Assembly: GCF_001563475.1 (NCBI RefSeq)
Contig: NZ_LPUT01000023.1
Coordinates: 372,001-436,000 of the forward strand
Reading direction: 5' to 3'
DNA length: 64,000 nt
Origin: Sporosarcina sp. HYO08
GTDB lineage: Bacteria; Bacillota; Bacilli; Bacillales_A; Planococcaceae
A program made the position numbers and the translations under genes. The notes below the pieces were generated by a model. That model made no database searches and was not told where the DNA came from. It was given only the letters and a program-made list of their open reading frames with translations. The number at the start of each line of letters is the position of its first letter. Position 1 is the stretch's first letter. Below are positions 2,043 to 56,482 of the stretch, in pieces.

Positions 2043-4829
2043 CTATTCATCCCCATTATTATAACAATTTTCGATATCATTCACCATATGCTCAAGTGTT
2101 ACTTTTTGGATTGGAACATTTGGCAATGATTTTAAAAAGTGCTTGCCGTAAGATTTTGTTTCAATTCGCCGATCTAAGATAATAAAATAGCCTTTGTCTG
2201 TTGACGCACGAACGAGGCGGCCAAACCCTTGCCGAAGCCTCATCATCGCTTCAGGTAAAGCATATTCCATAAATGAGTTTTTACCAGCCCCAGTCAGCTG
2301 TGCCGCTTTCGCTTTAAAGATCGGCTCATCGGGAGACGAAAATGGCAAACGGACAACAACGACTCCGCTTAGCGCCTCACCAGGAACATCCACCCCTTCC
2401 CAGAAGCTATTCGTCCCAAAGAGGATCGACCGGGAAAGTTGGCGAAATGCTTTTAATAGCCGCATTCGACTCCCAGAGCTAACGCCTTGTGCATAGAGCG
2501 CAAAGTCATTCAGCTGTTCACTTTCGACGATTAAATCATACGTTTTTCGGAGCATATCTTGCGAAGTGAACAAGACGAAAAGCCGGCCATTTAAGGTGAG
2601 CGATACGCTGATAATTGCATCTGCAATGGCTTCAATATAGTCGTTTTGCGACACTTTCTGAATGTCCGGCATATCTTCCACAAGATAAATTTCCGCGCCT
2701 TCATAAAAATGCGGCGGTGCTTCGTATTGAATGAGCGGAATCTCATCAGCGATGCCAAGCTGACGGGCGATAAATCGGTCATAGTCCTGGAGCAAAAGCG
2801 TACCAGAAGTCCAAATAATTCCTGCTTGATGATCTTTAATTTTTCCAATGAATTGGCGAATGATCGCGGCGCTGTCAATGGGCGTTTTAAAAACTGTTAA
2901 GCTGCCAGGAATGCTGCGCCGATCGACTTCAACCCAAGCGGTATTGCTGTCCGATTGTAAATCCAGAAAAATCTCTATCCATTCACCGGCTTTGATCGTC
3001 ATTTCTTGCACCCAATAATCCCATTCTGCAAGCCTTGCGAGCTCATCTTTCGTTAGCTCATTTTTTCGGGCGTGCAGTGACTTTGTATAAGCATCTGCTA
3101 ACTGTAGATAATTTGATAGCGCTTTTGATACTTGTGCAAATCGGTCCATCTCCCCATTCACTTCGACTAAAGAATATTGGACACGTTCTCCATTTTGCTT
3201 TCCTTTATGCACCCAGTTACCAACTGTTAACAGCTGAATAACCTCATCGAAAAGATGAGAAAATGATGAATAGGAAAATTGTAGCTGCTCTTTATGACCC
3301 GAATTTGCAGTTTCTAATTGGCGATGGATCGCATCAATTTTTTGTAGCAATTGGCCATCTCCATCGGAACTAAGCTGCCCCATAACATATTTCCAATTGG
3401 TATACGAAAATACGATTTCATGATGCCGACGTGCAACTTGGACAAATTGATGCGCCTCGTCAATAATATAGCCAGCCGCCGAAGTGAGAACACCTTCTTC
3501 TCGGTTCATTTCGGACAAAAGCATCGCGTGGTTTGTAATAATGACATTGGATTGTTTACATAACTGAACGAGCCTACTATAATAATCAGCTTGTTGTTCA
3601 TCTGACCGTAATACCGTAGTTCGTTTCCGGATCCGATCCACAAATAACTGACCGCCGCCGGAAACGTTAATCTCATCTAAATCACCAGTTGCTGTTTCTG
3701 TTAACCAAACAAGTATTTGCATAATCGTGAATGTTTCATCGTATGATTCATCCGCAATTCGAAGAAGTTCTTCAAATTTCCCCAATGATATATAATGCGC
3801 TTTTCCTTTTAAGACGACTGCCTTTAGTTTCGTTCCAAGCATTTGTTGGACCCGCACCAATTCACCGTTCATCATTTCATCCACCAAATGGTTTGTGTAG
3901 GTGCTAATGACGATCGGTTTATTTGCTTGAAGGGAATGAATCGCTGCTGGTAGTAAATAGCCTACCGTTTTCCCAATACCTGTTGGCACTTCAACGGCGA
4001 TTTCCTCGTGGTTCTGAAGTGCTTGCCAAACGCGATCCATATACCGAAATTGTGAAGATCTTTGTTCAAAAACTGGGAAAGCTTTTTCAAACAACTGTTT
4101 TTTTTGCTGATCTTCTGCTGGGTAATCGAAGCCTCTAAAATGGACAGAAGGATCTGCTGGGATTTTCTTGTACGGAATCCCTCTAAAAAGCGCATAGTCC
4201 TTTCGCTCATTCAAAGCGCGGACTTTTTTCAGCGCTTTAAAAATGAGTGAAGCTATATTCGATTTCAATGTAAACGAACGCTTATGCAATAAGGCCAATG
4301 TCTCGTACGGCAGCGTGTATAGCTTTTCAAAACCTGTTAGAAATAGCTGCGCTGTTGCACGGGCATCGTCATCTGCGCGATGCGCGGATGGAAGCGAAAT
4401 CGCAAGCTCATCTGCCAAATCCTGAAGTCGATAGCCTTGTGCAGAAGGATAAGCAATTTTCGCTAATTCAACCGTGTCAATTTTCATCCCTGTCCATTTT
4501 GGCAGACCGCATCGCGTCCATTCATTTTGTAAAAAATTTAAATCGAAATCTGTATTGTGTGCAACGAAAATCGTCCCTTGTAAAAGCTCCAAAACTTCTT
4601 GGGCAATTTCTTCAAAATAGGGCGCATTGCACACATCTTCATTCGAAATCGACGTCAACTGGCGAATGAATGCGGGAATTTTTTTCGCCGGATTGACAAA
4701 CCGAACATATTCATCGGCAATTTCACCATTTTTTATGAAAACGATTGCGATTTGAATGATGCGATCTCCCTTTGCAGAAGAGTTCCCAGTCGTTTCTAAA
4801 TCAACAACCGCATATGTATTATTTTTCAT
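2043..4829 (-). CDS. dinG: DinG-family 3'-5' exonuclease/helicase-like protein
   Basis: A 928-residue protein with an N-terminal DEDDh exonuclease domain (D10, E12 in VDLETTG; VAHNTDFDLNF near 89-99; HRADDDA at 150-156) fused to an XPD/DinG-type SF2 module. The latter shows Walker A VPTGIGKT at 281-288, IIDEAHQF, SFWEGVDVPGEAL and the RQGFGRLVR motif VI. The cysteine cluster that holds the Fe-S centre in E. coli DinG is not visible between Walker A and DEAH. Staphylococcal DinG of this fused type behaves mainly as a nuclease (family knowledge). The start codon has only a distant purine tract (GGAAG about 17 bases upstream), so initiation may be weak. The gene heads a unit with ypmB, aspB and dnaD. 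Confidence 0.93.
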   Translation of the reverse strand: MKNNTYAVVDLETTGNSSAKGDRIIQIAIVFIKNGEIADEYVRFVNPAKKIPAFIRQLTSISNEDVCNAPYFEEIAQEVLELLQGTIFVAHNTDFDLNFLQNEWTRCGLPKWTGMKIDTVELAKIAYPSAQGYRLQDLADELAISLPSAHRADDDARATAQLFLTGFEKLYTLPYETLALLHKRSFTLKSNIASLIFKALKKVRALNERKDYALFRGIPYKKIPADPSVHFRGFDYPAEDQQKKQLFEKAFPVFEQRSSQFRYMDRVWQALQNHEEIAVEVPTGIGKTVGYLLPAAIHSLQANKPIVISTYTNHLVDEMMNGELVRVQQMLGTKLKAVVLKGKAHYISLGKFEELLRIADESYDETFTIMQILVWLTETATGDLDEINVSGGGQLFVDRIRKRTTVLRSDEQQADYYSRLVQLCKQSNVIITNHAMLLSEMNREEGVLTSAAGYIIDEAHQFVQVARRHHEIVFSYTNWKYVMGQLSSDGDGQLLQKIDAIHRQLETANSGHKEQLQFSYSSFSHLFDEVIQLLTVGNWVHKGKQNGERVQYSLVEVNGEMDRFAQVSKALSNYLQLADAYTKSLHARKNELTKDELARLAEWDYWVQEMTIKAGEWIEIFLDLQSDSNTAWVEVDRRSIPGSLTVFKTPIDSAAIIRQFIGKIKDHQAGIIWTSGTLLLQDYDRFIARQLGIADEIPLIQYEAPPHFYEGAEIYLVEDMPDIQKVSQNDYIEAIADAIISVSLTLNGRLFVLFTSQDMLRKTYDLIVESEQLNDFALYAQGVSSGSRMRLLKAFRQLSRSILFGTNSFWEGVDVPGEALSGVVVVRLPFSSPDEPIFKAKAAQLTGAGKNSFMEYALPEAMMRLRQGFGRLVRASTDKGYFIILDRRIETKSYGKHFLKSLPNVPIQKVTLEHMVNDIENCYNNGDE

Positions 4830-5102: not shown

Positions 5103-5483
5103 TTAAACAGTCATCCCCGGTTTTTCTTTAATAATTTCTTTCACCTGATTGCCTTCATCCATAATCAATACAGTCGGTTCGTGTGTACGCGCTTCTTCAT
5201 CGGTCATGTAAACGTAGGAAAGGATAATGACGACATCACCGCGCTGGACGAGGCGAGCTGCTGCTCCATTCACACAAATGACGCCGCTTCCGCGTTCTCC
5301 TGCAATGATATATGTTTCAAATCGTGCGCCATTGTTGTTGTTAACGACATGAACTTTTTCATTCGGCAGCATGCCTGCTGCGTCGAGCAAATCGCTGTCG
5401 ATCGTAATGCTTCCTACGTAGTTTAGATCCGCTTCCGTGACAGTTGCGCGGTGTAGTTTACTGTTCATCATCATTCTGAACAT
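5103..5483 (-). CDS. panD: Aspartate 1-decarboxylase (pyruvoyl enzyme)
   Basis: A 126-residue proenzyme making beta-alanine from aspartate for pantothenate. The self-cleavage site Gly-Ser is visible in NYVGSITID (about residues 21-29); the new N-terminal serine becomes the pyruvoyl group (family knowledge). [21 protein letters not shown] and [12 protein letters not shown]-type segments match Bacillus PanD along its length. The ATG at 5483 overlaps the end of panC by 13 bases, indicating translational coupling in panBCD. The terminator pair at 4941-5070 follows. Confidence 0.97.
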
Positions 5484-6358
5484 ATTTTACCATCCTTTTG
5501 AATTAAAATATTGTCAATCAATCGTGTCTTTTGGAATTTAACTGCACAGGCAAGAATCATTTCCGTCGCCTTGCCGTCATCAGTTGCTAGTTCAGGATAA
5601 GTAAGCATCGTTACATAATCAATTTGCCCCGATGTCTGTTCCGTAATATAGTTTGCGACTGCCTGTTCCACATCAGTTGCGGATTGACCGCTTTGAAACA
5701 ATTCCGCCCCCCTGCTCAAAGCTTGACGAATAGCAGGTGCTTCCTTACGCTCTTCTGGCGATAAGTTGACATTTCTTGAGCTTTTCGCAAGACCATCGCT
5801 TTCCCGCACCGTTTCAACACGTACAATTTTTGTTCGGAAGTTAAAATCGCGGACGAATGTTTCAATAATCGCCAGCTGTTGGGCATCTTTTAATCCGAAA
5901 TAAGCACGATCTGGATCGACCATATTAAACAGCTTCAAAATGACTTGCAAAACACCGTCAAAATGAGTCGGACGCGATGCTCCGCAAAGCACTTTCGCTT
6001 GCGGCCCCGGTAAAATCCGAATCCCGCCGTCATGCGGGTACATTTCTTCAGGTGTTGGCATAAACAGAATATCGACACCAGCTTCACGCGCTAGCTGAAT
6101 GTCACGTTGTTCATCACGTGGATACGCTTCAAAGTCTTCTCCCGGTCCAAACTGTGTCGGATTGACGAAAATGCTCATCACGACTAGATCATTTTGCTTT
6201 CTCGCATTTTCAGCGAGTGCTATATGGCCTTCGTGCAAAAAACCCATCGTCGGTACAAATCCGACTGTTTTTTGACCATCCCTTTTTCGTGTGGCAATCG
6301 CTTCCCGAAGTTCTCCAACAGAATGAACAATCACCATCTCTTTTTCATTAGCGACCAT
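5471..6358 (-). CDS. panC: Pantothenate synthetase (pantoate-beta-alanine ligase)
   Basis: A 295-residue ATP-dependent ligase joining pantoate and beta-alanine. The HIGH-like nucleotide motif is in [10 protein letters not shown] near residue 40, with FVNPTQFGP and the KMSKS-like segment [10 protein letters not shown] further on. ATG at 6358 is preferred because GGGGGA lies 7 bases upstream; in-frame ATGs at 6373 and 6364 are poorly spaced from it. With this start the gene overlaps the end of panB by 11 bases and runs 13 bases into panD, a tightly coupled operon. Confidence 0.96.
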
Positions 6359-7193
6359 TGTCATTTCCCCCATACAAGCTGACTAATTCCTCTTCCTTCA
6401 TCGTAAAGCGGTGCTGTTCCGCTGGAAATGAACGATCCTTCACTGCACCAACATAAGACGATAAGCCGTTGACGATACTTGTACCGACCGCAGCGTACGA
6501 TTCGACGAATTTCGGAATATGGTGACTTCCGTATTCGAGCACATCGTGAAACACAAGCACTTGTCCGTCTGTTTCGCTACCCGCTCCAATGCCGATAATC
6601 GGAATCGAAACCGCTGCTGTCACTTCTTTTGCAAGTTGATAAGGAATGCATTCGACAACAATCATCATCGCACCGGCAGCTTCACAGCTTCTCGCATCTG
6701 CAATCAACTGCTTGGCGGCCGCAGCCGTTTTCCCTTGCACTTTGTAGCCGCCAAGAACAGCTGCGGATTGCGGCAATAATCCTAAATGCGCAACGACGGG
6801 TATACCGGCCTCTGTAAACAGCTCAATCTTATCAATGACTCGTCCTGCGCCTTCCACTTTAACAGCCTGTGCGCCGGTTTCCTGGTATAAACGAACCGCC
6901 TCTTGAAGTGCTGTATCATTAGAGCCGTGATAAGTGCCGAATGGCATATCGACAACGACAAATGTATCTCTCGCTCCCCTTACCGTCGCTTTTCCGTGAT
7001 GAATCATATCCGCCATCGTAACAGATGTCGTTGATTCATACCCTAAAACGACCATGCCGAGTGAATCACCGACGAGAATGATGTCTACACCCGCCTCCTC
7101 CGCAAGCTTTGCAGACGGATAATCATAGGCGGTGACCATCGCAATTTTTTCACCTGCTTGTTTCATTTTCATAAAATCGACTGTACTCTTCAC
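6348..7193 (-). CDS. panB: 3-methyl-2-oxobutanoate hydroxymethyltransferase
   Basis: A 281-residue enzyme transferring a hydroxymethyl group from methylene-tetrahydrofolate to ketoisovalerate to give ketopantoate, the first committed step to pantothenate. Typical segments are [34 protein letters not shown] and the metal/substrate region KVEGAG near 113. The start is GTG at 7193, 9 bases after GGGAG. A promoter, structured leader and terminator-like hairpin lie between birA and this gene (7239-7435), so panBCD can be controlled apart from birA. Confidence 0.97.
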
Positions 7194-7238: not shown

Positions 7239-7276
7239 AAAAAACCCTTCATTTTCCGAGTTTGGACAGAAGGGTT
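7239..7276 (-). terminator. Attenuator-like terminator in the panB leader
   Basis: An 8-bp stem (AACCCTTC at 7269-7276 read on the minus strand, and its complement at 7243-7250) is followed by a T run (7244-7239). It lies about 130-160 nt into the panBCD leader and 46 bases before the panB start, so it would stop transcription before the operon unless an antiterminated fold forms. Confidence 0.7.
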
Positions 7277-7329
7277 GTGTAATGTCATATTAAATGGTTT
7301 CCTCCGTCCCTGTCTGTAAAAAGATCAAG

Positions 7330-7400
7330 GCAGATCTTATCGGACTCATATTCAATTATCATGCGAATGAATCGGTGCAGTTCCTAAGATACCGCCCTCT
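7330..7400 (-). ncRNA. Candidate structured panBCD leader RNA (possible pan motif)
   Basis: On the minus strand ATCTTA-GGA (7390-7382) can pair with TCC-GA-TAAGAT (7344-7334), a stem interrupted by a two-base GA bulge, enclosing a second imperfect stem. It stands between a good promoter and an attenuator in front of panBCD. A bulged hairpin RNA called the pan motif is described upstream of pantothenate genes in some Firmicutes. I recall only its general form, so assignment to that family is inference. No T-box AGGGTGG-type signature is present. Confidence 0.4.
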
Positions 7401-7406
7401 GGGAAT

Positions 7407-7435
7407 ACTATAACAAAAGCCGAGTCCCCTGTATA
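7407..7435 (-). promoter_or_regulatory. Sigma-A promoter of panBCD
   Basis: TATACA (7430-7435) and TATAGT (7407-7412) on the minus strand, spaced by 17 bp, immediately after the birA stop codon. The predicted start near 7400 places a leader of about 200 nt before panB. Confidence 0.6.
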
Positions 7436-7441
7436 GAGTTT

Positions 7442-8428
7442 TCAGTCTTTCGGTAATTCAATATCTGCAGAAAAAATGCCACGAATCGAACCGTCATCAA
7501 GTCTTAGCTCCAATACACCTTCGTCCGAAATACCGAGCGCGGTTCCTTCAATCGTTTCATTGAGCAGCACAGCCCGAATTCTTTTTCCAATTGTATTGGA
7601 GTAACTTTCCCAAACGAGCTTGATCGGCTCAAATCCACTTTTTTCATACATGGAAATATAGAGCTCTAAATAATCAGCAATTTTGGCGATTAATTGGGCA
7701 CGATTTACTTGTTGACCGGAAGCAATTTTTAATGACGTCGCAATTGTTTGCAATTCTTCCGGAAAGTCACTTTCCTCATGATTCACATTAATGCCGATCC
7801 CTAAAATGACCGCTTTCACACGATCCGGGTCGGCTTGCAATTCTGTTAAAATGCCCGTTATTTTTTTACCATCGATCAATAGGTCATTCGGCCATTTAAT
7901 TGTCGGCTCCAAACCTGTAATCTCTTCGATTGCCCGCGTCACAGCAACTGCTGCAACAAGCGTCATCTGTGGTGCTTGCTGAGGCATAAGATGCGGTCTG
8001 CAAATGACACTCATCCAAATGCCTTTACCGCTGGCAGAACTCCAAGGCCGCATCATTCGGCCTTTTCCTGCCGTTTGTTCTTCGGCAACGACGATCATGC
8101 CATCAGGTGCGCCATTTTGTTCTTCCTCAAGCGCAATTGGCTGCGTAGATGGGCAGCTATCGACATAACGAATACGACGGCCATATTTTTTCGCCATTAA
8201 GTACTTTTGAATATTCGCCTCGTTCACGAGATCCGGCGTTTCAATTAAATAATAGCCTTTTTTCCGTACCGTCCCAATTTCATAACCGTCCTTTTCTAGG
8301 TCCTTAATATGTTTCCAAATAGCTGTTCGGGACATTCCGAATTGATCGGCGAGATCTTGACCGGAAACCGGCTCCCCTTTTGCTTCAAAGAGCTTTTTCA
8401 ACAATTTACTTTTGACATTTAAACTCAT
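7442..8428 (-). CDS. birA: Biotin-[acetyl-CoA-carboxylase] ligase / biotin operon repressor
   Basis: A 328-residue bifunctional protein. Residues about 1-65 form a winged helix (SGQDLADQFGMSRTAIWKHIKDLEKDGYEI), so it should also act as a biotin-responsive repressor. The catalytic domain carries the biotinyl-AMP loop AGKGRMMRPWSS near 117-128 and the substrate segment TIKWPNDLLIDGKKITGIL near 190. It biotinylates acetyl-CoA and pyruvate carboxylase carrier domains (family knowledge). The start overlaps the end of cca by 23 bases, as in the Bacillus bshA-cca-birA cluster. Confidence 0.96.
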   Translation of the reverse strand: MSLNVKSKLLKKLFEAKGEPVSGQDLADQFGMSRTAIWKHIKDLEKDGYEIGTVRKKGYYLIETPDLVNEANIQKYLMAKKYGRRIRYVDSCPSTQPIALEEEQNGAPDGMIVVAEEQTAGKGRMMRPWSSASGKGIWMSVICRPHLMPQQAPQMTLVAAVAVTRAIEEITGLEPTIKWPNDLLIDGKKITGILTELQADPDRVKAVILGIGINVNHEESDFPEELQTIATSLKIASGQQVNRAQLIAKIADYLELYISMYEKSGFEPIKLVWESYSNTIGKRIRAVLLNETIEGTALGISDEGVLELRLDDGSIRGIFSADIELPKD

Positions 8429-56331: not shown

Positions 56332-56460
56332 CCTTCACCTTCTCCCATCCAGACTTTACTGTCGGCTCTGGAATCACACCAGAATCAGCTGTTAAGCTCG
56401 CGGGCTAGAAAGAGATCTTCCATTACCGCCGGTCGGGAATTACACCCTGCCCCGAAGATG
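56332..56460 (-). ncRNA. FMN riboswitch (RFN element) upstream of ribU
   Basis: Read on the minus strand the aptamer starts ATCTTCGGGGCAGGGTG (56459-56443), contains ATTCCCGACCGGCGGTAAT and AGCCCGCGAGC, and ends with GGATGGGAGAAGGTGAAGG-type sequence. These blocks are the RFN signature. FMN binding should favour the downstream terminator and shut off ribU when flavin is plentiful. Confidence 0.95.
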
Positions 56461-56482
56461 AATCAATATTGTATTTGGTTTT

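Follow-up and report, generated by a model that had tools for sequence, protein, structure and literature searches.

The tandem pan leader of panBCD in Sporosarcina sp. HYO08: a proposed attenuator from an RNA family that also leads uptake and kinase genes

Introduction

What does the RNA leader ahead of the pantothenate synthesis operon of Sporosarcina sp. HYO08 respond to, and how would it switch the operon? The question arises from one short segment of a 64,000-nucleotide window (the whole stretch of DNA analysed), where the gene order on the minus strand is birA, leader, and then panB-panC-panD. The original prediction described the segment as a riboswitch or attenuator for pantothenate synthesis, possibly the pan motif. 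The main text of the 2010 description of pan leaves its ligand open (Weinberg et al. 2010, PMC2864571), and a 2022 review counts coenzyme A (CoA) among the ligands conspicuously missing from the known riboswitches (PMC9971707). A search of the open-access literature yielded no pan ligand, no pan antiterminator and no pan element before coaX, coaW or transporter genes.

Results

The leader lies between birA (7442-8428, minus strand; PF03099, PF08279, PF02237) and panB, the gene for ketopantoate hydroxymethyltransferase (6348-7193, minus strand, GTG start at 7193; TIGR00222 with 341 bits, PF02548), which is followed on the same strand by panC, encoding pantoate-beta-alanine ligase (5471-6373; PF02569), and panD, encoding aspartate 1-decarboxylase (5103-5483; TIGR00223, PF02261). 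The birA stop codon is located 6 nt upstream of the -35 element of a promoter (7407-7435, minus strand; TATACA-17-TATAGT) comprising a -35-like TATACA at 7435-7430 and an extended -10, TGTTATAGT, with its hexamer at 7412-7407. A lone match of this kind, with TG before the -10, is weak (2 found on both strands versus 0.8 expected); the TATAGT hexamer is kept in all 17 of 17 leaders of the host genus, in support of the promoter originally placed directly after birA. Transcription is predicted to start near 7400, 2 nt ahead of the first hairpin. At the distal end, an intrinsic terminator (7239-7276, minus strand), recognised from sequence, folding and relatives, is formed by a hairpin at 7276-7243 and a U-tract reaching 7239, and it ends 46 nt before the panB GTG, just where a terminator had been proposed. 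An automated terminator scan of the window reported none at the panB leader, probably because the inner loops of this hairpin exceed the limits of that scan. Elsewhere in the window, an FMN riboswitch (RF00050, 119.9 bits) occupies 56333-56463 on the minus strand.

The suspected kinship with pan was borne out by the Rfam test named along with it: cmscan matched the complete motif RF01749, two hairpins and their linker, to 7300-7398 on the minus strand, with 54.5 bits where the gathering cut-off is 36.2, full-length coverage of model positions 1-92 and an E-value of 1e-6 over the 64-kb window; the structure is also conserved in relatives. Matches to TEG147, mir-4879 and DnaX in the leader fell far under their gathering scores and were discarded. 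The single stem with a GA bulge that had been described resolves instead into two hairpins, P1 (7374-7397, minus strand) and P2 (7303-7334, minus strand), each with two bulged adenines on opposite strands. Both are built alike: above a basal helix comes a bulged A in the 3' strand, five pairs further on there is another in the 5' strand, and two more pairs lead to the loop, the bulged residues being A7390 (5' strand) and A7376 (3' strand) in P1 and A7325 (5' strand) and A7307 (3' strand) in P2. With a predicted 5' UTR position before panB, panC and panD and a conserved promoter upstream, the leader resembles pan as described in the main text of PMC2864571 in sequence, structure, its two hairpins in tandem, both with two bulged As, and place before panBCD, and it shows no difference from that description at this locus. 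The panB leader of this window is thus a typical, ordinary member of the pan family. It is the only copy in the host genome, where CoaX, CoaBC and other CoA genes carry no pan element, which counts against the CoA reading given below. The genome of the Bacillus subtilis laboratory strain, taken as a control, also has a pan match.

Nor is such a leader rare in its group, as had been supposed. Within the host family, 141 of 151 genomes match pan at E <= 0.01 and 140 score above the cut-off, and pan leaders ahead of panB have been published for Bacillus and Paenibacillus (PMC4342826, PMC5670726), with pan RNA also listed among Bacillus 5' UTRs (PMC4634765). As all three are RNA-seq studies that list pan RNAs in 5' UTRs, leaders of this type are evidently transcribed in relatives. 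Of the ten pan-less genomes in the family, five lack panB and five, all of genus g9, keep panB without the leader (5 of the 8 genomes of that genus; L090-L094); in L090, panB begins about 40 nt after birA, a natural leader loss. Genus g7 carries two pan copies in 16 of 16 surveyed genomes. In all ten that were read (L048-L067) the operon is split, one copy leading panB and the other panC-panD, and both halves have a terminator as well as a pan leader. A new target gene for the second g7 copy was thereby ruled out in these ten, and the arrangement carries no information on the ligand. Of 398 genomes sampled across the phylum Bacillota, 165 have a match at E <= 0.01 and 139 exceed the cut-off.

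Conservation was scored on 77 of 85 family leaders, eight being omitted since no terminator was called within 45 nt. All four bulged adenines (A7390, A7376, A7325 and A7307) are invariant in this alignment. P1 is paired in 99.4% of cells, with 5 of its 9 pairs varying on both sides, and P2 in 99.6%, with 7 of its 11 pairs free of any variation, so that P2 is too nearly invariant for its covariation to be scored; the terminator is paired in 85% of cells, and 10 of its 12 pairs vary on both sides. These pairing values were reached in 0 of 500 shuffles, a control that ignores relatedness. In a wider set, scanned specially for this analysis, 154 of 195 leaders had a terminator of -10 kcal or better beginning at most 45 nt from the pan end, versus 1 of 195 shuffled ones. 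The 195 are all pan-matching loci among L001-L204, with the duplicates L040 and L045 left out and L088-L094 being panB loci; some automatic terminator picks are wrong (e.g., L109, L112, L155) and were kept in the counts. In several uptake-type leaders (L128, L285, L291, L292) P1 appears degenerate with P2 retained, so P2 may suffice.

The 3' strand of P2 has a second possible partner. Its positions 7309-7301 are complementary over nine pairs to positions 7272-7264 of the terminator 5' arm, defining an antiterminator whose 5' half, GGACGGAGG (7301-7309, minus strand), is common to P2 and whose 3' half, CTTCTGTCC (7264-7272, minus strand), is common to the terminator; A7307, bulged in P2, is paired in this alternative. 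The expression platform is therefore exclusive with the conserved domain, the P2 3' strand residing either in P2 or in the antiterminator, and the attenuator originally read from the terminator gains an element that had not been described. Among the 77 family leaders, the antiterminator is paired in 94.2% of cells and complete (9 of 9 pairs) in 54. Only one of the nine pairs varies on both sides within the family, and the others vary on one side at most, as P2 itself hardly varies. The terminator 5' arm has a mean identity of 0.91 versus 0.70 for the 3' arm in the same leaders, which is expected if the 5' arm has two partners.

At the sequence level, the covariation evidence for the antiterminator is a partner-swap test across families, with a single representative per family for 44 of 49 families. 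Duplexes of native P2 strand and terminator arm average -11.3 kcal versus -9.5 kcal when the partners are permuted (z = -5.5; none of 10,000 permutations did as well, relatedness not corrected for). When the 44 leaders are compared singly with mononucleotide shuffles, p < 0.05 is obtained for only 36% of them.

Minimum-energy folds of successive transcripts of this leader point to an ordered exchange. Before the terminator arm emerges, P1 and P2 form (-27.9 kcal); transcripts of 138-154 nt, ending inside the terminator, prefer the antiterminator fold (-33.9 kcal); from 158 nt on, P2 is restored together with the terminator. Among 44 family representatives, a truncation test favoured the antiterminator in 22 and kept P2 in 20, with 2 ties. 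At full length the fold with P2 and the terminator is more stable by 3-6 kcal, which is also what would be seen if the leader were a fixed attenuator in which P1 and P2 merely guard the 5' end of the RNA or determine its lifetime, with no sensing. The four invariant bulged adenines and the conserved three-way pairing speak against such a passive role, as does the recurrence of pan ahead of transport and kinase genes that are unrelated but belong to a single pathway (see below), and we consider it very unlikely. A leader peptide was also considered and rejected: a 32-codon open reading frame with an upstream GGAGG (about 7288-7190, minus strand) spans the terminator and extends into the panB start, but a frame starting before the terminator and ending within 12 nt of panB occurs in 8 of 75 family leaders and the peptides differ, so that chance or local coupling seems the better account.

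The reading we favour, with a confidence moderately better than even, is that the panBCD leader is a tandem-pan attenuator in which P2 serves as anti-antiterminator with OFF polarity and the effector reports a sufficient CoA supply. The two exclusive pairings and their conservation were computed; function in cells and polarity we infer. In the unoccupied nascent RNA, the P2 3' strand (7309-7301) would pair with the terminator 5' arm (7272-7264), preventing the terminator and leaving panBCD transcribed. The effector would stabilise P2, the proposed site of sensor contact, and occupy its 3' strand; with the antiterminator thus excluded, the terminator would fold and panBCD would be off. Since the antiterminator needs the P2 3' strand, P2 formation should mean OFF.

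A putative translational variant in family f69 would have the same polarity. In four genomes (L195, L198, L285, L286), GGGAGG lies within the P2 3' strand, just before a PanT-like gene, and is likely the ribosome-binding site of that gene; P2 formation would hide it and again mean OFF, so that the predicted terminator-type and translational platforms agree. The PanT-like gene has no in-frame ATG, GTG or TTG at its conserved N-terminus. An ATT (one genome) or ATA (three genomes) stands there, about 8 nt past the GGAGG at the pan 3' end, the site being inside P2, and AUA/AUU start codons are possible from the sequence.

The gene tally at pan loci elsewhere covers 130 loci of the phylum sample (L095-L204, L285-L304), assigned by BLASTP against reference proteins with Pfam/NCBIfam checks on representatives only. 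Pantothenate synthesis genes (panB, panC, panD or a DUF2520 reductase, PF10728) are led by pan at 111 of them; the reductase, judged by its place in the operon, is probably ketopantoate reductase. At least three of these synthesis-type loci have an SBF-family transporter (PF01758) ahead of panC, which recalls the panD-panC-panS pantoate salvage operon (PMC6593275). A further 17 loci, from eight GTDB families (f13, f40, f48, f57, f69, f82, f100 and f124), lead uptake and kinase genes with no panBCDE; as 20 of the 130 were included on account of multiple copies in their genomes, 17 of 130 is no unbiased rate. Two loci, L125 and L295, were left unassigned; the gene after pan at L125 (G152, 3168-3401, minus strand) encodes a 78-aa protein that has two CxxC-type motifs and matches no Pfam family.

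The uptake loci are of two types. In one, ECF S components (PF12822) or BioY-family proteins (PF02632) usually accompany the type III kinase CoaX (PF03309, NF009847), sometimes after birA. Bacillus subtilis has a paralog, YuiG, of its high-affinity pantothenate S component PanU, and the family has been proposed to have diverged towards biotin and pantothenate (PMC11487621), which fits the presence of BioY-type genes under pan. In the other type, an OPT-family transporter (PF03169) is paired with the type II pantothenate kinase CoaW (NF009842). A search for relatives of the pan-led OPT proteins found 186 loci, of which 80 were read, 40 of these with an Rfam scan and the remainder by a crude pattern only. 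In the 40 scanned loci, pan scores above the cut-off in front of 7 of the 21 OPT genes that have CoaW as a neighbour, versus 0 of 19 without CoaW. The pan-led OPT-CoaW loci include that of Ruminiclostridium papyrosolvens C7 (L223). When the 14 unmatched CoaW loci were rescanned permissively, two more came out just above the cut-off, L217 and L218 (Ruminiclostridium hungatei); three pan-led OPT loci, L205, L208 and L211, appear identical to contigs of L138, L141 and L182. In L276 (Peptococcaceae bacterium), a CoaX-like gene stands just downstream of the OPT gene in place of CoaW.

Discussion

The computed target set bears directly on the effector, which we infer to be CoA or one of the late intermediates on the way to it, for example 4'-phosphopantetheine or dephospho-CoA. 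A panC match is absent in 6 of the 12 genomes tested, each with an uptake/kinase pan locus (G184, G226, G231, G424, G461, G496). As pan leads synthesis, uptake and kinase genes, and six such genomes have no panC, the signal should lie after the kinase; the pattern of gene contexts favours, over pantothenate, a signal that arises past pantothenate kinase (CoA or 4'-phosphopantetheine). An RNA, or its protein, that senses pantothenate itself, making pan a vitamin B5 sensor, would account for the 111 of 130 sampled loci ahead of pantothenate synthesis genes and would fit PanT-type uptake genes as well. It would also have a substrate repress its own kinase, which is counterproductive, and pan leads kinases of both the CoaX and the CoaW type; moreover, pantothenate would be bypassed at the OPT loci if the OPT partner imports pantetheine. 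A pantothenate sensor is therefore unlikely.

The two uptake types sharpen the preferred reading of a late CoA-pathway signal. Type I and II kinases accept pantetheine whereas type III (CoaX) cannot phosphorylate it, and in yeast both pantetheine and 4'-phosphopantetheine enter through Opt1 as mixed disulfides with glutathione (PMC12406275). By analogy, OPT with CoaW versus ECF with CoaX fits pantetheine versus pantothenate salvage, the ECF and OPT substrates being putative. Given these kinase specificities and import by Opt1, the two pan-led kinds of uptake may meet only at 4'-phosphopantetheine: if OPT imports pantetheine, that would be their first shared product, followed by dephospho-CoA and CoA. 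An obligate dependence of the panC-less genome G461 on pantetheine was not supported, as CoaBC, the absence of which had been expected, is present along with CoaX; G341 and G524 also hold CoaX and CoaBC.

In topology, the proposed P2, antiterminator and terminator are like pyr operon attenuation by PyrR in Bacillus, where an anti-antiterminator hairpin, an antiterminator and a terminator turn the operon off when end product is plentiful. The pan leader differs in having two hairpins, and the likeness is one of mechanism. With the tandem glycine riboswitch, pan shares two homologous units in one leader, although the pan units are far smaller and direct ligand binding by pan is putative.

Sensing could accordingly be either by the RNA or via an RNA-binding protein. 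A dimeric protein that clamps P1 and P2 in the manner of PyrR at high levels of CoA or of another product of the pathway would suit hairpins that are small, with variable apical loops and with two bulged adenines each as their main invariant unpaired residues. From the simple tandem form, the discoverers of pan suggested a dimeric protein-binding motif in the main text of PMC2864571. Weighing on the other side, no candidate protein was found, birA being the only regulator-like gene often beside pan, and we regard the protein clamp as evenly poised. More tentatively, and with a confidence well short of even, pan may be the missing CoA riboswitch class, binding CoA or 4'-phosphopantetheine directly and shutting off synthesis, uptake and phosphorylation of all CoA precursors; its targets would extend to a bacterial importer of pantetheine-type precursors from the OPT family, paired with a pantetheine-competent type II kinase.

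The antiterminator and the wider target set of uptake and kinase genes are new here, and both go beyond the passage on the pan motif in PMC2864571. The wider gene set narrows the pan signal to the late CoA pathway. The comparison also supplies testable targets in a defined antiterminator, a terminator, an OFF polarity and a proposed pantetheine importer. Its value lies in a mechanism and a target set revealed by relatives, which make the pan question of 2010 testable; taken together, the comparison suggests that the pan family shuts down both the making and the uptake of vitamin B5 when CoA is plentiful.
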